Assembly: GCA_024230295.1 (NCBI GenBank)
Contig: JAAERN010000152.1
Coordinates: 1-54,750 of the forward strand
From: Planctomycetota bacterium
Lineage (GTDB): Bacteria > Planctomycetota > Phycisphaerae > Phycisphaerales > SM1A02
Direction of reading: 5' to 3'
Length of the DNA stretch: 54,750 bases
Part shown: positions 6,528 to 16,020 of the stretch, piece after piece
Numbering within the stretch: position 1 is the first letter of the stretch
How the letters are laid out: each line of letters starts with the position of its first letter
Translations under genes and position numbers: made by a program
The notes under the pieces: model-generated
Seen by the model: the letters and a program-made list of their open reading frames with translations, nothing else
Told to the model about the DNA's origin: nothing
Databases searched by the model: none

Positions 6528-8081
6528 TCACCCTGCGGCGACGAAGCCTGCTTTGTATTCCTTGATTGCGGCAGCGAATTGATCGCCGATCTTCTTGAAA
6601 GATCGCTGCTCAACCAGTTCGTCACGAAGCGGTTTCCCAGCACCGTTGAAGTACTCCAGAAGTCCTCGCTCGAACTCGTGGACTCGGTCAAGATCGACAT
6701 CATCCAAATAGCCCTGAGTGCCTGCGAAGATCGAGATGCACTGGTCGATTACGTCGTAGGGGGCATATTGGCCCTGCTTGAGCAGTTCCACCATGCGACC
6801 GCCGCGATCGAGCTGCTGCTGGCTGGCGACGTCGAGTTCGGTACCGAGCTGGGCAAATGCTTCGAGTTCACGGAATGCAGCGAGGTCGAGCCGGAGCGAA
6901 CCGGCGACTTCCTTCATTGCCTTGATCTGAGCATTGCCACCGACGCGGCTGACCGAGATGCCGGCGTTCACGGCGGGGCGGACGCCAGAGGCGAACAGTT
7001 CGGGCTGCAGGTAGATCTGGCCGTCCGTAATCGAAATGACGTTGGTCGGGATGTACGCGGACACGTCACCTTCCTGCGTCTCGATGATCGGCAGTGCCGT
7101 CAGCGAACCACCACCGTTTTCGTCGGAGAGTTTGGTGGCTCGTTCCAGAAGGCGGCTGTGAAGATAGAAGACGTCTCCGGGATAGGCTTCGCGGCCCGGT
7201 GGGCGGCGGAGCAGCAGGGAGAGCTGCCGGTAAGCAGTTGCCTGCTTGGAGAGATCGTCATACACACACAGAGCGTGCTTCGGAAGCTTCCCATCCTTGC
7301 CCTGATTCATGAAGTACTCGGCCATGGCGCATCCAGCGTAAGGCGCGATGTACTGAAGGGGGGCGGGCGTCGAGGCGCCAGCATTGACGATGATGGTGTA
7401 GTCCATCGCGCCGTGCCGCTGCAGGGTGTCAACGACGGCCATGACCGTCGAGTCCTTCTGGCCTACGGCGACGTAGACGCAGACGACGGCATCGTCAGTT
7501 CCCCAGAACTGCTTCTGGTTGATGATGGCGTCGAGTGCGACGGCGGTCTTGCCCGTCTTTCGGTCGCCGATGATGAGTTCACGCTGGCCCCGGCCGATGG
7601 GAATCATCGAGTCGATGGCCTTGACGCCGGTCTGTAGCGGCTCGGTCACCGGTTGCCGGGCGGAGATGCCCGGTGCGACGATGTCGAGCTTCTGGGTGGC
7701 GGTCGTCTCGATCGGTCCGCGTCCATCGACTGGGTTGCCAAGAGGATCGACAATGCGGCCAAGCAACGCTTCGCCCGCTGGTACCTGGAGCAGACGGCCG
7801 GTCGTCTTCACCGTGTCACCCTCACGAACCGCGAGGTTGTCACCGTAGATGACAGCGCCGACAGTGTCGGACTCCAGATTCATCGCCTGCCCCATGACGG
7901 GCCCGCGATTGGTGTCGAACTCAAGCAGTTCACTGGCCATGCACGAGGAAAGGCCATAGACGCGGGCAATGCCGTCGCCGACCTCCACGACTCGGCCAAC
8001 TTCGGAGACTTCCAGTTCGCTTGAGAACTGTTCGATCTCTTGCTTGATAACTGCGGTAATTTCGTCGGTCTTGATCTTCAA
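6528..8081 (-). CDS. atpA: ATP synthase F1 subunit alpha
   Basis: Alpha subunit of F1, the non-catalytic nucleotide-binding partner of beta in the alpha3beta3 head. Family landmarks are [16 protein letters not shown] near the N-terminus, the P-loop GDRKTGKTA, and [16 protein letters not shown] place the start at TTG 8081, which has an AGGA ribosome-binding site 9 bases upstream, begins LKIKTDEI and gives 517 residues, close to the usual 510. An upstream ATG at 8153 would run 58 bases into the preceding gene and adds residues unlike the family. It is the last gene of this ATP synthase cluster: atpG, atpD and atpC do not follow, and a strong terminator lies directly downstream. Confidence 0.97.
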
Positions 8082-8095
8082 GGGTCTGTGTCCTG

Positions 8096-8860
8096 TCAGT
8101 CCGTGGAACCGGACTGCTGCGTTGGTGCCCCGTTTTTCGGGGCAATCTCCCACTCGGCGGTCACACTCGCGGTGACCGTCACCATGCCTCCGCTGATCGC
8201 GGGGGCGGAATCACTATCCATGGATCGCATCTTGGCTGCTCCTGCCATGAACGCGTGCTCGACGGGACGCGGCGGCGAAGCGTTCGCGCCGTCGAGGGAA
8301 ATACGAAGAAGCTGTACCAGCCCGACGCCCGAGGCGTCGGCCAGGCTTGTGGCATCAGCGATGGCGTGCTCGGCTGCCTGCCGAATTGCCTGCTGGCGAC
8401 TTGTTCTGGGGTCGGCCAACGTGAAGTACAGCGACCCGATGTCGTTGGCGCCTGCTTTCGCAGCCTTCGCCACCAGCATGCCCGCAATGTCCATGCGAGT
8501 CGATGTCACCGACAAGTTGGATCGGACCGAGTATCCGACAATTTCAGGCGTCCACGTGTTGGCGTCTGCGTTTCGTGGCCGCGGCTTCCACTGCGGCGTG
8601 ATGTCGTAGCGGCCGGTATGCCATTCGTCGTGCTTTTTGAAGCCAAGATCGGTGACAACAGCCACCAGTGAGCCCATCGTGCGATCGACCTCCGAGCGTG
8701 CTTCGTCAACTGTTGTCTTGCTCGCACTCGCACCGATCGTCAGCGAGAACTGGTCTGCGGCGACCTCTAATCGGGCATCGCCATTGACTGTCAACGTGCA
8801 CGGCGCCGCGACGCAGGTCGCGGATGCCAACGCAGTCAACATCACGGCAAGGCGAATCAC
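8096..8860 (-). CDS. Secreted SIMPL-domain (DUF541) protein inside the atp operon
   Basis: Exported protein of the SIMPL/DUF541 family (relatives include YggE and BP26), whose members are periplasmic or outer-membrane associated and of poorly known function. A signal peptide is visible at residues 1-18, ending near CVAA. The mature part starts [21 protein letters not shown], typical of the first strand of the domain, and covers the rest of the 254 residues. It starts with GTG overlapping the atpH stop as GTGA and ends 14 bases before the atpA start, so it must be co-transcribed with the synthase genes. SIMPL proteins are not known parts of F1Fo, so the position is unexpected. Confidence 0.85.
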
Positions 8861-9480
8861 GTGAAGTGTTCCTCTTGGTCGGGGACGGACATGAAGTCAC
8901 TCGGCGTGTCGGAGATGACTCGGTTGCCCTGAACCTGAAGACCTCTCTCGAACTGCTTCAATCGTGCTGCGACTGAGCCATCGACAAGCGTGTCTCCGAT
9001 GCGGATCTTGATACCGCCGATGAGCGAGGCATCGGTCCAGGCGTGAAGTACTGGCTCCTTGCCGAGAATCTCATGCAGTCTGCTGCTGAGCAACTTCTGG
9101 CTATCGGCGTCGAGCGATACCGCAGTCCACGCGTCAACTTCGATGCGTCCCCATGCCTCTTGGACCATTTCATCAAAGGCCGCATGAATAGTCTCAATCC
9201 GTCCGATCCGGCCATTGGTATTCAGGACGAGCATGAAACGGAGTACCAGATCGGTGACTCGGTCTGCAAAGATTGTCTTGATACCAAGTGCGCGTCGGGC
9301 TGTATCGATTACGGGAGAATCAAGATACTCGCGGAAGTTGGTGTCACTTCGGACCAGTTCGCACACCTGCTCCAACTCGTCTGCGACCTCTAGGATCTTG
9401 TCCCGTCCCCCAGCCTCATTACAGAGGTCAAACAGGCTTCGGGCGTAGATACGGGCCAGGGTGTCGGTCTGGGCGGGCAT
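8857..9480 (-). CDS. atpH: ATP synthase F1 subunit delta
   Basis: Delta (OSCP-like) subunit, which links the top of the F1 head to the b-subunit stator. The N-terminus DTLARIYARSLFDLC is the typical opening helix of the six-helix domain. The C-terminal signature is visible as SLIGGIKIRIGDTLVDGSVAARLKQF. At 207 residues it is somewhat longer than the usual 175-185. It begins 17 bases after atpF and shares a GTGA overlap with the SIMPL-domain gene downstream. Its place between atpF and atpA matches the standard operon order apart from that insertion. Confidence 0.95.
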   Translation of the reverse strand: MPAQTDTLARIYARSLFDLCNEAGGRDKILEVADELEQVCELVRSDTNFREYLDSPVIDTARRALGIKTIFADRVTDLVLRFMLVLNTNGRIGRIETIHAAFDEMVQEAWGRIEVDAWTAVSLDADSQKLLSSRLHEILGKEPVLHAWTDASLIGGIKIRIGDTLVDGSVAARLKQFERGLQVQGNRVISDTPSDFMSVPDQEEHFT

Positions 9481-9497: not shown

Positions 9498-10028
9498 TCA
9501 GCCAGCGTTGGCCTGAGCAAACTCCTGAAGGGTGCGGTCAACCAGATCGCGCTGGTCATCCGCCGAAATTTCACGCTCGAGAATCCGTCCGGCAATGGCC
9601 GACGAGATATCTGCAGCGTGAGCGTTGATGTCCTTGATGGCCGCCTCACGGGCGGTATCGATTTCCCTGTGGGCTTGTACCCGCAGTGAACTCAGCTCGG
9701 CCTCCGCCTTGGCGCGAAGGTCAGCCGCGGCTTGCTCGGCACCGGCACGTGCTTTGGCGATCAGTTCATTCGACTCGACGCGGGCAGCACGAAGTGCATC
9801 TTCTTGCTGCCGCAGCGCGTCCGCAGCCTCAGCCCGGGCGGCCTCGGCACGTTCGATTTCACCGCGGATCTTCTGATCACGCTCATCCAGCCCGGTCAAA
9901 ATCTTGGGCCAGACCAGAACGGCGGCAACGCCGAAGAAAATCAGAAAGACAACGACCGTCGTGACGAGCGTCAACCATTCAACTTGAACGGGGTTCGCTC
10001 CCGCTTCGGATGCAAGAATGTGCAGCAT
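9498..10028 (-). CDS. atpF: ATP synthase Fo subunit b
   Basis: Peripheral stalk subunit b of Fo. One membrane helix (about residues 18-40, LVTTVVVFLIFFGVAAVLVW) is followed by a long charged, Ala- and Glu-rich coiled coil to the C-terminus, in which AHREIDTAREAAIKDINAHA is typical. I choose the ATG at 10028 because TGGAG lies 7 bases before it, giving 176 residues. A further ATG at 10055 lies inside a strong intercistronic hairpin and is unlikely to be used. There is only one b-type gene here, as in non-photosynthetic bacteria with a b2 homodimer. The synthesis rate relative to subunit c may be set by that hairpin. Confidence 0.95.
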   Translation of the reverse strand: MLHILASEAGANPVQVEWLTLVTTVVVFLIFFGVAAVLVWPKILTGLDERDQKIRGEIERAEAARAEAADALRQQEDALRAARVESNELIAKARAGAEQAAADLRAKAEAELSSLRVQAHREIDTAREAAIKDINAHAADISSAIAGRILEREISADDQRDLVDRTLQEFAQANAG

Positions 10029-10052
10029 CGCGTCGCTCCAGAAGTGCATGCA

Positions 10053-10083
10053 CATTCCTTCGGGGTGATTCCCCGAAGGAATG
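10053..10083 (-). other. Perfect 13-bp intercistronic stem-loop between atpE and atpF
   Basis: Thirteen uninterrupted base pairs close a five-base loop (stem 10053-10065 with 10071-10083). It lies in the gap between the atpE stop and the atpF start. No T run follows on the minus strand, so it looks like an RNA-stabilising or processing hairpin rather than a full terminator. It could help keep subunit c more abundant than subunit b. Confidence 0.8.
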
Positions 10084-10099
10084 CGTCATGCGAACTTGA

Positions 10100-10597
<498 letters not shown>

Positions 10598-11527
10598 TTA
10601 GTGAGCCAAGGCCCCTTCGGGGGCATGAGACTCGTCATGTTCCTCGTGCTCTTCGTGATGGTGTGTCATCTGACCGATGAACACCGTCGTAAGGAACATG
10701 AAGATGAAAGCTTGAAGGAATGCGACGAACAGTTCCAAGAAACTGATTGGAATCGCCGCAATGATGGATATCAGAGAAATGCTGCCCGATGTGACCCAGT
10801 TCATGGTGCTGGCGTAGGCCATGGTGCCAAAGGATGCGAGCACGGCCATCAGGGTGTGACCGGCGACCATGTTGGCGAACAGACGAATGGCCAGAGCAAC
10901 CGGCTTGATGAACAGGCCGAGGAGTTCGACTGGCAGCATGATCGGAAGCAGATAAAGCGGAGCACCACCAGTGAGGTGGCTTGCCCAGCCCTTGACGCCA
11001 AGCGATCGGAAGCCTTGATACTGGATGGCGACGAACGATATCAGTGCCAGTCCAAGCGTGACTGCGAGATTGGCTGTGGCGGTGCCGCCGAACAACATCC
11101 AGCGATCATCGGGTGAATTAAGTCCGGTGACGGCATGTTGCAAATCAAGTGTCGGTACAAGGCCGAGCAGATTGCATGTCAGAATGAAGAAGAAGAGCGA
11201 GAGCAGGAAGGGCAGAAATCGCCGCGTATCTGCCCCGAGGATCGGTCGGATGGCGTTCTCAATGAGGTACATCGAAATGACTTCGATGAGTTGAGCGAAT
11301 CTACCTCTCGTGAGATGTCGGTCGGTACCCAGATCTTCTTTCCCCGTCTTGATGGCAGCGGCGGCCCATAGCAGTACGGCCATACCGATAAGCCCCGCCA
11401 CGACGAGCGTGATCATGTGCATGCTCAGACTGCCGTGAATCCACGGAACCTTCTGATCAATGATGTGGTGAATCGGGTTGTCGGACGCCAGCAGGTGGAT
11501 CATCGGTAGTTTGGGGCTCGGGAACAC
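10598..11527 (-). CDS. atpB: ATP synthase Fo subunit a
   Basis: Subunit a, the membrane channel that passes ions to the c ring. Several transmembrane helices are clear, and the essential Arg lies in the conserved helix as ALAIRLFANMVAGH. FLELFVAFLQAFIFMFLTTVFIG is the typical last helix. At 309 residues it is longer than the E. coli protein (271). The extra length is partly a long N-terminal part and partly a His/Glu-rich tail (HHHEEHEEHDESH) that could bind metal or sense pH (inference). The reading frame begins with GTG at 11527; an ATG at 11503 (MIHLLASDN) is an equally plausible start. It follows the two small AtpI/AtpZ-like genes. Confidence 0.95.
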   Translation of the reverse strand: MFPSPKLPMIHLLASDNPIHHIIDQKVPWIHGSLSMHMITLVVAGLIGMAVLLWAAAAIKTGKEDLGTDRHLTRGRFAQLIEVISMYLIENAIRPILGADTRRFLPFLLSLFFFILTCNLLGLVPTLDLQHAVTGLNSPDDRWMLFGGTATANLAVTLGLALISFVAIQYQGFRSLGVKGWASHLTGGAPLYLLPIMLPVELLGLFIKPVALAIRLFANMVAGHTLMAVLASFGTMAYASTMNWVTSGSISLISIIAAIPISFLELFVAFLQAFIFMFLTTVFIGQMTHHHEEHEEHDESHAPEGALAH

Positions 11528-11572: not shown

Positions 11573-11989
11573 TCAATGTGCTTCCCGCTTGAACCGGCGG
11601 GCAGCAATTATGGTCTCGCCGATGAGTACGGGAACGAGTCCCGCAAGCGCGCCGATGAGCAGAGGGCCCGCCGGCAGGCGAGCCGCAAAGTATAGCAGCA
11701 GGCAGACTCCAATGGTGCCGACGATGCGACCTGTGGAGGCGGCCACAAGCAGCCCGCCCCACAACAGGATGGGCCGTGGCTTCCATGGCCGGAGCACGAG
11801 AACAACGGCACCCGACACGACCCCGGTGACACCAATCGCAAGCAGCCCAGGCCCAAGTGCCGAGTCTCCCCAGGAACCAAACTGGCACACAATCAGCCAT
11901 ATGACCGCTACTGCCGCTGGAGCTCCGAACGCAACGCCGAAGAGCGCCTTCCCAGGGAGCGCGATAGCTGGTTGAAGATCCCCACTCAT
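11573..11989 (-). CDS. Small membrane protein at the AtpI position of the atp operon
   Basis: Protein of 138 residues with about four hydrophobic helices (near 13-35, 45-65, 74-98 and 104-126) and a short basic C-terminus. It overlaps the preceding atpZ-like gene as ATGA and precedes atpB by some 45 bases, the place where atpI or a similar assembly factor is usually found. AtpI-type proteins assist c-ring assembly or Mg2+ supply, and that role is inferred here from place and topology, since I see no diagnostic motif. Reading frames on other registers of the same stretch lack these hydrophobic patterns and are disregarded. Confidence 0.7.
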   Translation of the reverse strand: MSGDLQPAIALPGKALFGVAFGAPAAVAVIWLIVCQFGSWGDSALGPGLLAIGVTGVVSGAVVLVLRPWKPRPILLWGGLLVAASTGRIVGTIGVCLLLYFAARLPAGPLLIGALAGLVPVLIGETIIAARRFKREAH

Positions 11990-12246
11990 CGGTCTCGCCG
12001 CTCCTTCTCAAGCCGTCGATTTTCTGCCATTGCGGAGTGAATAAAGCCGGTCATTCCCACCAGAACCCCGGCGACCGCCCCCACGATGATCCACGTTCGC
12101 TCAAAGCCAAATGCCCAATCGGCCAGCCAGCCCAGCAGCGTGCCGGCGACGACTTCGGTGGTCAGCGTGAATCCCATGGCCGAGAGTCGCCAGAGACGAT
12201 TTTGATCGTCCGGGCTGCCATTTCGCTTACCTGTGGGGAGAACCAT
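11986..12246 (-). CDS. AtpZ/AtpI-family protein (F1Fo accessory subunit)
   Basis: Short protein of 86 residues with two membrane helices (about 24-46 and 50-70) joined by a short turn with ADWAFGFERT. It resembles the AtpZ/AtpI family (putative F0F1-ATPase subunit), whose members commonly sit in front of atpB, support ATP synthase assembly and have been linked to divalent-cation transport. It starts only 9 bases after the nuoI stop codon and overlaps the next gene as ATGA. This ties the NADH dehydrogenase subunit and the ATP synthase into one probable transcript. A second in-frame ATG at residue 24 would remove the polar N-terminus. Confidence 0.75.
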   Translation of the reverse strand: MVLPTGKRNGSPDDQNRLWRLSAMGFTLTTEVVAGTLLGWLADWAFGFERTWIIVGAVAGVLVGMTGFIHSAMAENRRLEKERRDR

Positions 12247-12255
12247 GCGGCGCCG

Positions 12256-12813
12256 CTACATCGGTTTCTCATCGCAGGTCTGGTCGTAGACCTGGAGGAG
12301 TTTGGTTTTGTCGAAGATCATCTCGTTACGGCTCAAGCCGACGATCTCGTATCGCGGGGTCAACTCGATGGCATCCACCGGGCAGGCCTCTTCGCACATA
12401 CCGCAGAAAATGCATCGCAACTCATCGATATCGAACTGCTTTGGGTATTTCTCCCGATCATCCCAAGGGGCTTCATCAGCGACGATGTGGATGCAGTTTG
12501 CCGGACAGGCCGTGGCGCACATGAAGCATGCGACGCATCGAACCCGTCCAGCATCATCGCGATTGAGCCGATGGACGCCGCGAAATGTCTGCTTGTACTG
12601 GCCACCTTCAAGAACGCCGTAGTGCTCTCGGCGATCCTCCGGGTACTGAAGCACCCGGATGTTCGTGGTCTTCTTCCCGTCCCGCCCAACATTGCCTAGG
12701 CAGTGGCGGAGGGTCGTTCCGAGCCCCTTGAAGACTGCAGGTAGATACAAACGATCCGCACGGCTCATGGGCGCAGGAGTGACATCAACGATCTGGTTGG
12801 GTTCAATCGACAT
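12256..12813 (-). CDS. nuoI: NADH-quinone oxidoreductase subunit I
   Basis: Ferredoxin-like subunit of respiratory complex I that carries clusters N6a and N6b between the peripheral arm and the quinone site. Two complete 4Fe-4S motifs are visible, CVACFMCATACP and CIFCGMCEEACP, spaced as in NuoI. The flanking parts (TTLRHCL at the N-terminus, QYPEDRRE, and IFDKTKLL near the C-terminus) are also NuoI-like rather than those of a free ferredoxin. Length is 185 residues. No other nuo gene is in the window. It lies directly upstream of the ATP synthase genes with a 9-base gap, so it appears to be the first gene of that operon. Confidence 0.9.
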   Translation of the reverse strand: MSIEPNQIVDVTPAPMSRADRLYLPAVFKGLGTTLRHCLGNVGRDGKKTTNIRVLQYPEDRREHYGVLEGGQYKQTFRGVHRLNRDDAGRVRCVACFMCATACPANCIHIVADEAPWDDREKYPKQFDIDELRCIFCGMCEEACPVDAIELTPRYEIVGLSRNEMIFDKTKLLQVYDQTCDEKPM

Positions 12814-12858: not shown

Positions 12859-14457
12859 TTAACCGTTTCGCCAGAATCGAGGGTGGAAGAGCACAAGGAT
12901 GACAAACACCTCAAGCCGCCCGACGAGCATCAGGAAGCACAGGAAGACCTTGGAGGTGTCACTGAACCAGCCGTAGTTCTGGATTGCTCCGACTCGATCG
13001 AGCCCCGGGCCAACCGTACAGATGGTTGCAAGGCTTGCAGTCGCGGCGGTAGCGAAACTGCAATTCGTCGATTCTGCTTCCAGGGCCTGTAACACGACTG
13101 CCCCAATGCCTAGAAGCAGAATGGTTCCCAGAACATAGGTCACCACATTGAGTTTCTGTTCCCGGTCGATGACCTGGCCGCTGACTTTGAGGGGTCTCAC
13201 GACGTCGGGCCTAAAGAACCGCTCAAGCTCACCCCAAAGCACTCGGAGTGAAATCCAGATTCGAACAACTTTGACACCGCCAGCGGTCGAACCAGCCGAG
13301 CCACCGACGAACATCAGAACGATAATCATGGCCTTTGCTGCGAAGGGCCACAGGTCAAAATCGAAGGTGACGTAGCCGGTTGTTGTTTGTTGGGACACCA
13401 CGGTGAAGGCTGCAGCTCGGAGACTCTCACCGCCTGTTGCTGCGACCTCACTTCCATTACTCAAGACAAGTGGTTCGCCGTGCCCGACGAGGGCGGCGGT
13501 CACCAGCGCCGTGCCACCGAGCAGGCAAAGCAGATAGATTCGAAACTCTGTGTCCTTGAGCGCAGACTTCCATCGCCCCTTGAGGAATGCGAGCAGCACC
13601 GTGAAGTTTGATCCGGCGATCACCATGAACACGACCAGCACGATTTCAGCGGCAAGCGACTCGGGCCTGGCGATGCTGGCGTTGCGGGTGCTGAAGCCAC
13701 CAGTAGCGAGCGTCGTAAACGTGTGGTTTGCTGCATCGAAGAGGCTCATGCCAGTTACAAGAAGCAGGATGATTTGCGCTGCCGTAAGACCTACATAGAG
13801 TGTCCAGAGTCTCCTTGCGGTCTGTTTGATGGTTGGTCTGACGCCTTCCGGATCTGGTCCAGGGGACTCGATTCGGAAGAGTTTTTTGGCTGCGGTTCCA
13901 AGGCCGGGAAGGATGGCGACAAACAGCACGAGAATGCCAAGTCCGCCGAGCCACTGAATCAACGATCTCCAGAGGAGCAGTGAACGCGGCAATGCTTCGA
14001 TATCGGTCAGGATCGTTGCGCCGGTCGTTGTCATGCCGCTCATGGCTTCGAAGTAGCAGTCGATGACCGAGTGAAACGGGTGGTTCTCCGGAACGCCGTT
14101 CGCCAGCGTTGCCCAGACCAGGAACGGGCAGGCCGCAATGGCGGCCCCAATGACCCATGAGCCCGTGGTTACGAGTGCCGCGTCCTTGCGACTCATTCGA
14201 TAGGTTTGGCGGCTCATGGGGCCTGGTCGAATTTTCGACCTCATGGCCGCTTCAACGGATCGGTGGCCATACCACCACGCGAGCGTGCCGACAATTGCGG
14301 CAGCACCGCCGGAACCGATCAGGCTCAACTCCGCCGCATCAAGTATCAATCCGCCCTCGCCGGGAATTAGGAAGAAGATGATTCCTACCAGCGCAAGGAG
14401 CGAGCCGAGCAAGAGCCCGAGTTTGCCCCACTGGGCCAGCACGAATCGAAGATTCAC
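12859..14457 (-). CDS. trkH: Trk potassium uptake system, membrane subunit
   Basis: K+-translocating subunit of the Trk/Ktr superfamily. The protein has 532 residues with many membrane helices. The four pore loops typical of the family are readable as MSGMTTTGAT, TTLATGGFST, SQQTTTGYVT and TASLATICTVGPGL, each with the filter-type Thr/Gly. The start is GTG and overlaps the trkA stop codon as GTGA, so both subunits are made from one message in about equal amounts. Channel opening is expected to be controlled by NAD(H) or ATP binding to the TrkA partner. Confidence 0.93.
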   Translation of the reverse strand: MNLRFVLAQWGKLGLLLGSLLALVGIIFFLIPGEGGLILDAAELSLIGSGGAAAIVGTLAWWYGHRSVEAAMRSKIRPGPMSRQTYRMSRKDAALVTTGSWVIGAAIAACPFLVWATLANGVPENHPFHSVIDCYFEAMSGMTTTGATILTDIEALPRSLLLWRSLIQWLGGLGILVLFVAILPGLGTAAKKLFRIESPGPDPEGVRPTIKQTARRLWTLYVGLTAAQIILLLVTGMSLFDAANHTFTTLATGGFSTRNASIARPESLAAEIVLVVFMVIAGSNFTVLLAFLKGRWKSALKDTEFRIYLLCLLGGTALVTAALVGHGEPLVLSNGSEVAATGGESLRAAAFTVVSQQTTTGYVTFDFDLWPFAAKAMIIVLMFVGGSAGSTAGGVKVVRIWISLRVLWGELERFFRPDVVRPLKVSGQVIDREQKLNVVTYVLGTILLLGIGAVVLQALEAESTNCSFATAATASLATICTVGPGLDRVGAIQNYGWFSDTSKVFLCFLMLVGRLEVFVILVLFHPRFWRNG

Positions 14458-15803
14458 AGGGCGGCCCCGGCATCGAGCAGTGTACGTATGGCTACGGCGT
14501 CACTTGCGGTTGTGAGAACGATCATGTGCCTGCCAGCAATGATGCGCATATCACCTCCCGGTACGAACGCCTTCCCATCCTCATCTTCACAGGCCAATAC
14601 GAGTAGCGGTGGTTCTCGGTCAAGTTCCACAAGTGTGCGATTGATCAGTGGAGCAGCGTGCCCAACCCGAATGCGCATCAGCTCAAGCGTATCGTTGAAG
14701 AATCCCTCGATTCGCTCGTAGGCATGGCAGTGCAGCGCGCGACTGATGGCTTGGGCAGCAGCCTGCCGTGGATTCCAAGTGTGGTGAATTCCGAGTTCCT
14801 GCATAAGCGGCTCGAACTCGGCGTGCCGAATGACCGGCATGACGACCTCGACACCGCATCGACGAGCATAGGCACAGGCCAACATGTTCTGTTCATCGGA
14901 GCGCATCGACACAAAGGCGTCTACGCGGTCGAGATGTTCGTCATTGAATACTTCGGGCTGACCAGGATCGCTCTGTATTACGGTGATCCAGTCCAGTTTC
15001 TCGCCGAGCACTTCTGCTCGTGAGAGATCCGATTCGAAGAGGCGGATGTCGAAGTTCCGCTTTCCGAGAAAGCGGCACAGCCACACTGCTGCCGCGGGGC
15101 CCCCTGAAATCGCGATGTTCTGACGCCCATACCCGCCTGCGCAGAAGAACTGCTTTGCCGCCTGCAGGACCTTGCGTTCGGACACCAGCGTCACGATGTC
15201 CTCAGCTTCGACGGCGGTCTCGGCGGATGGTAGAAAGGCCTTCCCGTGGCGGGTGACGGCTGCGAGGCGGGCGCCTCGAGGAAGACCAAGCGACTTCAAT
15301 GGTTGTCCGATCGCAGGAGCGCGACTATTTACCTCGACCTGTTGCAATTCGATTCCGCTGCCGGCGAAGTGCTCGATGGCAATTGCAGCCGGATTGTGAA
15401 GCCGTGATGCCATCCCAGAGGCCATGGCACGATCGGGGGAGAAGAGTCGATCGACTGAGAAGACGGCCGCGTAGTCCAATTCCTCGTCCAAGAGAAACAT
15501 GCTGTGGTCGACTCGAGCGAGCGTCCGCTGCGCGCCGAGGCATGCAGCGATGTCGCAAATCACCAGATTGACTTCATCAATGTCGGTTGTAGCGATGACG
15601 GCATCAGCAGTTGCGGCGCCTGCCGCCCTTAGCGTACTTGCCGAACTTGCCGAACCTTCCACGACGGCGATGTCGAAGTGTTCTTCGAGGTAGTTCAACC
15701 GAGATTCGTCCTGATCAATGACGGTGACGCTGTCGCCACGGCCAGTCAGCATTTCGGCGGCCGCACCGCCGATATCGCCGCCACCACAGAGAATAATGTC
15801 CAT
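14454..15803 (-). CDS. trkA: Trk potassium uptake system, regulatory NAD-binding subunit
   Basis: Cytosolic RCK ring protein that gates TrkH. It has two tandem RCK modules, each an RCK_N Rossmann fold followed by an RCK_C domain. The first nucleotide-binding loop is intact (IILCGGGDIGG at the very N-terminus, with an acidic residue later at the end of the second strand). The loop of the second module is weaker (AISGGPAAAVW). I chose the ATG at 15803 because GAGGA lies 5 bases before it; an ATG four codons upstream is also in frame. Product 449 residues, matching E. coli TrkA (458). The gene is the first of a two-gene operon with trkH. Confidence 0.92.
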   Translation of the reverse strand: MDIILCGGGDIGGAAAEMLTGRGDSVTVIDQDESRLNYLEEHFDIAVVEGSASSASTLRAAGAATADAVIATTDIDEVNLVICDIAACLGAQRTLARVDHSMFLLDEELDYAAVFSVDRLFSPDRAMASGMASRLHNPAAIAIEHFAGSGIELQQVEVNSRAPAIGQPLKSLGLPRGARLAAVTRHGKAFLPSAETAVEAEDIVTLVSERKVLQAAKQFFCAGGYGRQNIAISGGPAAAVWLCRFLGKRNFDIRLFESDLSRAEVLGEKLDWITVIQSDPGQPEVFNDEHLDRVDAFVSMRSDEQNMLACAYARRCGVEVVMPVIRHAEFEPLMQELGIHHTWNPRQAAAQAISRALHCHAYERIEGFFNDTLELMRIRVGHAAPLINRTLVELDREPPLLVLACEDEDGKAFVPGGDMRIIAGRHMIVLTTASDAVAIRTLLDAGAAL

Positions 15804-16020
15804 GTCTGTCCTCATTTAGCAGCTCAACAGAGCGGCATCGCCCGCAGTGTATCCCCCAGCCATCCCAAATCGATGTGTCCGAGAACCTTGTCCTTGACGA
15901 GTGCGGCTGCGGTCTGGATACTGATATCTCAGCAGCAGCTGGCTGTGGGGCTGGCACGGATCTCTGGACGACAAATACCGTGATCGCACGACTCATTAAC
16001 GTGTGGGGAAGGACGGCCCG

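Follow-up and report, generated by a model that had tools for sequence, protein, structure and literature searches.

Why should a gene for a SIMPL-domain (DUF541) protein stand between atpH and atpA in a bacterial atp operon, and does its product belong to the F1Fo ATP synthase? The question is raised by a 54,750-nucleotide stretch of a Phycisphaerales genome, here called the window. A sequence-only reading of it had described the gene as coupled to its neighbours and had proposed that the product may be a new accessory component of the synthase. The standard bacterial atp operon has the order I-B-E-F-H-A-G-D-C. The order B-E-F-H-A is the same in the window, but an additional SIMPL cistron lies between H and A, and atpG is not next after atpA, which is followed instead by an inositol-monophosphatase-family gene. 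In reading order, the operon comprises the AtpQ-like gene, a 138-aa ORF, atpB, atpE, atpF, atpH, the SIMPL gene and atpA (Table 1). Both the GTGA overlap with atpH and the 14-base spacing to atpA were found in the sequence as they had been described. The atpA start was set by homology at a TTG, where most relatives have GTG. The SIMPL gene gave the only PF04402 match in this genome, and a promoter and terminator scan returned nothing that exceeds shuffled sequence.

Table 1. Features of the atp operon and of the genes upstream of it in the window.
Feature	Position	Strand	Basis
SIMPL (DUF541) gene, 254 aa, GTG start	8096..8860	(-)	PF04402, 142 bits
GTGA overlap of SIMPL start codon and atpH stop codon, 4 nt	8857..8860	(-)	sequence
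Gap from SIMPL stop to atpA start, 14 nt	8082..8095	(-)	sequence
atpA, F1 alpha subunit (start TTG at 8081)	6528..8081	(-)	TIGR00962, 776 bits
atpH, F1Fo delta/OSCP subunit	8857..9480	(-)	PF00213, 131 bits; TIGR01145 above cut-off
atpF, Fo subunit b	9498..10055	(-)	PF00430, 91 bits
atpE, Fo subunit c, with signal-peptide-like N-terminus and Ala-rich extension	10100..10477	(-)	PF00137, 55 bits
atpB, Fo subunit a	10598..11527	(-)	PF00119, 180 bits
138-aa hydrophobic ORF	11573..11989		
AtpQ-like gene (ATPase_gene1)	11986..12246	(-)	PF09527, 26.9 bits vs cut-off 26.6
NuoI-like two-cluster ferredoxin gene	12256..12813		TIGR01971, 112.2 bits vs cut-off 113.05
TrkH-like and TrkA-like genes	12859..15815		named by eye from translation

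The upstream part of the locus deserves a short description of its own. The 138-aa ORF occupies the place of atpI, and profile searches against Pfam and NCBIfam gave no family match for it. The AtpQ-like gene has the NuoI-like gene immediately upstream; in the window's family, many slot-carrying genomes likewise gave such a match on the atp stretch read, and none of the f2 genomes listed did (f1, f2 and f3 denote families, and "slot" the position between atpH and atpA). The Trk-like genes adjoin the NuoI-like gene, upstream of the atp operon.

The SIMPL identity of the product, as claimed, is borne out by a PF04402 match spanning residues 23-237 and profile positions 1-205 of 205, with 142.1 bits against a cut-off of 25.2. 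As for the claimed signal peptide, the N-terminus, judged by eye, is of the export type: a helix at residues 3-13 of the model is followed by a VAA/APC stretch, and a hydrophobic N-terminus is likewise visible by eye in an alignment of 24 rows. An AlphaFold2 monomer model computed from 24 aligned rows (mean pLDDT 86.6) consists of an N-terminal helix followed by the SIMPL domain and recovers the fold of the solved members. The best solved match is BP26, the 26 kDa periplasmic immunogenic protein (PDB 4hvz), which has the SIMPL domain and the fold in common with the slot protein (profile E 3.2e-41; for the predicted model, Foldseek E 4.8e-15 and Z 13.5 over 196 residues at 3.3 A, with 25% identity). 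BP26 is described in PMC9696568 as assembling into a barrel of 16 subunits; the model of the slot protein is of the monomer. The fold of a SIMPL-like protein from Campylobacter jejuni (PDB 7c50) is also alike (Z 12.9, tied with 4hvz, over 184 residues at 4.9 A), at 16% identity. Entry 10am, with nine chains, matched in sequence (E 1.2e-7) and is absent among the fold matches shown.

YggE of E. coli, which lies outside the atp operon and is linked to oxidative-stress defence, belongs to the same domain family. The slot protein nevertheless scored only 55.4 bits (residues 6-210) against the YggE model NF008299 (oxidative stress defense protein), far under its cut-off of 249, and thus falls in the SIMPL family without qualifying as a YggE by the NCBI standard. 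A PHROGs search returned a single unnamed family. Among the other hits, the many ribosomal and PII-like chains that have part of the same fold (VIA) were not read as kin, and a proteasome chain match (E 0.0028) was put down to chance.

The gene is not unique to this genome. In a first sample of 61 genomes including its own, 37 came from the window's family; 18 of these carry SIMPL between atpH and atpA, 16 have atpH and a closed atpH/atpA junction (25-176 nt in all 16), and the assemblies of the remaining three (G003, G009 and G016) gave no match for atpH. Among the 18 carriers, the gene of G004 is interrupted by two contig ends, and one of these contigs (L171) has the SIMPL-atpA end only. Within the window's genus the slot gene is present in eight of nine genomes, the ninth being G003. 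A second SIMPL match was obtained in 3 of the 18 slot genomes, so the slot copy is the sole one found in 15. The survey was extended to 301 Phycisphaerales genomes of 147 genera with a profile (A1) that was built from slot genes and whose scores therefore favour them. SIMPL matches were detected in 88 genomes, and in 40 of these, from 25 genera, the gene is attached to atpH and/or atpA (30 genomes of the window's family, 1 of f3 and 9 of f2). The survey suggested by the sequence-only reading thus does find a conserved slot gene among relatives. Three of the 40 are irregular: SIMPL adjoins atpA with atpH on another contig (G058), SIMPL adjoins atpA with another gene separating it from atpH (G258), or SIMPL follows atpH with atpA inverted behind (G038). 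None of the 48 remaining genomes with a match has an attached SIMPL locus: 51 loci of 47 genomes have no atpA, atpH, atpF, atpE or atpB on the stretch read, and in G040 the SIMPL gene lies about 10 kb beyond atpA. Junctions of genomes with no SIMPL match were read in part, and copies that are very divergent may have escaped detection there.

Outside the order, the arrangement was seen neither in 15 loci of the same class, nor in a phylum sample of 294 genomes (27 loci, two of them from Phycisphaerales, flanked by no more than 1.5 kb to either side), nor in six loci of other phyla read up to 4 kb. Ten loci that do have it are Phycisphaerales or Phycisphaerae records of several projects; they are included among the genomes counted above and are not extra cases. 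No earlier report of an atpH-SIMPL-atpA arrangement was found among the titles and abstract beginnings searched in the PMC open literature.

The coupling geometry was tabulated for all slot carriers except G004 and G058 (41 of 43), with start sites read mechanically. The first in-frame SIMPL start lies at -4 relative to the atpH stop in 25 and at -1 in 7, and the claimed overlap with atpH is conserved, in its 4- or 1-nt form, in 32/41. In the window's genus, all seven complete genes (the window and six congeners) end 14 nt before atpA; elsewhere this gap ranges from -4 to 479 nt. Start-stop overlaps are common in bacterial operons generally, and in the same operon the AtpQ-like gene and the next ORF likewise overlap by 4 nt. 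The SIMPL dN/dS ratios (Nei-Gojobori) were 0.10-0.21 in four congeneric pairs, at large dS; a fifth pair was saturated, and an atpB row (G000-G008) that looks like an alignment failure was excluded. Ratios for atpA were 0.03-0.05, and those of SIMPL were higher than for atpA and mostly higher than for atpF and atpH. Judging from these ratios, the SIMPL gene is under purifying selection, yet evolves faster than its neighbours.

The history of the gene was evaluated on two trees. The SIMPL tree contained 103 domains, i.e. 113 distinct rows minus 10 shorter than 190 aa (the G004 gene among them). By maximum likelihood, a single branch (support 98/86) separates all 42 attached rows from the 61 unattached ones, and this branch recurs in 96% of 200 bootstrap trees. 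The host tree was made with FastTree from the joined atpB/E/F/H/A proteins of 92 genomes, 42 of them with the slot gene, a set enriched for carriers. On this tree, some inner branches of which are weak, a single gain requires eight losses, and unordered parsimony gives nine changes. The slot gene thus seems to have been gained once, long ago, and then kept in place or lost. Together, the single tree group, the one gain with eight losses, the conserved overlap and the low dN/dS mark it as an old, selected atp-operon cistron.

Three genomes call for comment. G038 (f3) lies beside G827 and G745, inside the f1 rows, in the SIMPL tree and with the split-operon f2 genomes in the host tree (support 0.377); since its position differs between the two trees, descent is not entirely clean and the gene may have been transferred between families in this case. 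In G825 and G158 (L257:5086-5865 and the slot ORF of L127), the slot genes have SIMPL-tree branches of 1.69 and 1.78, the host atp-gene branches being 0.07 and 0.25 in a tree made by a different method. Their reading frames are open and the 4-nt overlap is kept. A later replacement of these low-scoring genes by an unrelated SIMPL was rejected, as both lie inside the slot group. They do so on long branches, which makes their exact place less sure, and they are most likely fast descendants rather than later insertions.

The explanation that we favour, at roughly even odds of being correct, is that the junction of atpH and atpA received, in a single insertion, a gene for an ordinary exported SIMPL protein like BP26 or YggE, and that this gene has remained a regular atp cistron. 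The insertion would have taken place in an ancestor of a large part of the Phycisphaerales. SIMPL would be read from the atp mRNA and started by re-initiation of ribosomes finishing atpH, in which case its amount would track that of the synthase. After export and cleavage, the product would fold in the periplasm, where it would probably form a BP26-like oligomer and may perform the general envelope and oxidative-stress work ascribed to the family, its dose being tied to the energy-converting membrane. The preserved overlap with atpH suggests that shared expression is useful. SIMPL may accordingly be pictured as a useful yet dispensable companion of the synthase, and not as one of its parts. 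Its dispensability is apparent in the window's family, where the search at E 0.001 detected no SIMPL gene in 13 of the 16 slot-less genomes with atpH, the other three being G024 (under the cut-off), G025 and G034. Close relatives therefore keep the synthase without the slot gene and mostly without a substitute from the same family, so the role is not essential in this family.

The main rival to such usefulness is that shared expression is merely tolerated. The location would then be irrelevant to function: SIMPL would sit in an insert-tolerant junction, from which it can be deleted but hardly relocated without breaking an essential operon. We consider this possible, if somewhat unlikely. The junction indeed holds other inserts: a gene of the 23S rRNA IVP family in G040 (PF05635, 124 bits), an IS200-type transposase in G251 (PF01797, 108 bits), a transposase match under the cut-off (19.2 vs 23) beside the inverted atpA of G038, and, in G258, an FG-GAP gene that separates atpH from SIMPL in convergent orientation. 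A gene located at a junction that takes unrelated inserts need not serve the synthase. Slot-less junctions are moreover closed up, and in 16 sampled slot-less f2 genomes no atpA follows atpH within the stretch read, the operon being split at the very junction that holds SIMPL in relatives (L109, L113, L130-L134, L136, L138, L140, L142-L145, L160 and L165). On the other hand, a passenger does not need the start-stop overlap that most carriers have kept, common as such overlaps are in operons, and SIMPL still adjoins atpA in G058, where atpH lies on another contig, and atpH in G038, where atpA is inverted.

That SIMPL instead serves F1Fo as an accessory or assembly factor specific to this lineage, at work on the periplasmic face of Fo, appears improbable, even if a true accessory subunit is possible. 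Consistent with it are the single SIMPL group, seen only attached to atp genes, the kept coupling geometry, the export-type N-terminus and a covariation of rates with atpH. A synthase part would be expected wherever the form of the synthase that it serves is retained, but the gene shows eight losses in the 92-genome tree and is absent from 16 of the 34 family-sample genomes with atpH.

Evolutionary rates were compared in order to evaluate such a partnership. In a first comparison (31 genomes, and 19 with nuoI), SIMPL covaried with atpH only, with a residual rho of 0.54 in both. The comparison was then controlled with GrpE, trigger factor and EF-Ts in 28 genomes (53 branches); 30 had been chosen, of which 28 had every gene, and MreC, matched in 19/30, was left out. 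The SIMPL-atpH value was 0.41 (p 0.002), while SIMPL-GrpE reached 0.45 (p 0.001) and SIMPL-trigger factor 0.28. The values for atpF (0.02), atpA (0.07), EF-Ts (-0.06) and atpB (-0.37) were around zero or negative, and the positive control atpB-atpF gave 0.54. Two reduced runs gave 0.39 and 0.36 for SIMPL-atpH, and 0.59 and 0.42 for SIMPL-GrpE. The covariation with atpH was thus rejected as a sign of partnership, because the unrelated GrpE equals atpH and the signal is not specific. If anything, the rate data would argue a little against a partnership with the membrane subunits, three controls being few.

Subunit c was also considered. In many sampled Phycisphaerales its usual hairpin is, by eye, preceded by a signal-peptide-like start and an extension rich in Ala and Glu; the extension is missing in some relatives, e.g. 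G040, G044 and G049. A pairing of SIMPL with this periplasmic extension, an obvious docking site, was rejected since, by eye, slot-carrying and slot-less genomes have it alike, which speaks against the accessory factor as well. The sequence-only reading is therefore partly supported. The gene is a conserved atp cistron, but no specific support was found here for an F1Fo component, in view of the eight losses, the 13 of 16 slot-less genomes without any SIMPL, the unspecific covariation and a junction that takes unrelated inserts.

A more specific proposal, which we regard as a long shot, is that the slot protein forms a BP26-like ring, produced in step with the delta subunit via the overlapping start, and that this ring docks to the periplasmic side of Fo, or shields it, under a condition met by only part of the order. 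If true, such a condition would account for the strict linkage as well as for the repeated losses. The signal-peptide-like start and N-terminal extension of subunit c would sit at the proposed docking face. Finally, an assembly artefact or chance ORF can practically be dismissed: the genome is a 180-contig assembly, but the arrangement recurs in other assemblies from several projects, which makes it neither chance nor an artefact of this one, the PF04402 match is far above its cut-off and dN/dS is well under 1.

SIMPL proteins are widespread and poorly understood. The slot group, seen only next to atp genes and in 25 of the 147 genera sampled from one order, connects them with energy metabolism through expression, and the slot-carrying genomes and their slot-less relatives form a comparison set for SIMPL function. 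The locus also indicates that a highly conserved bacterial operon can keep a foreign cistron for a very long time.
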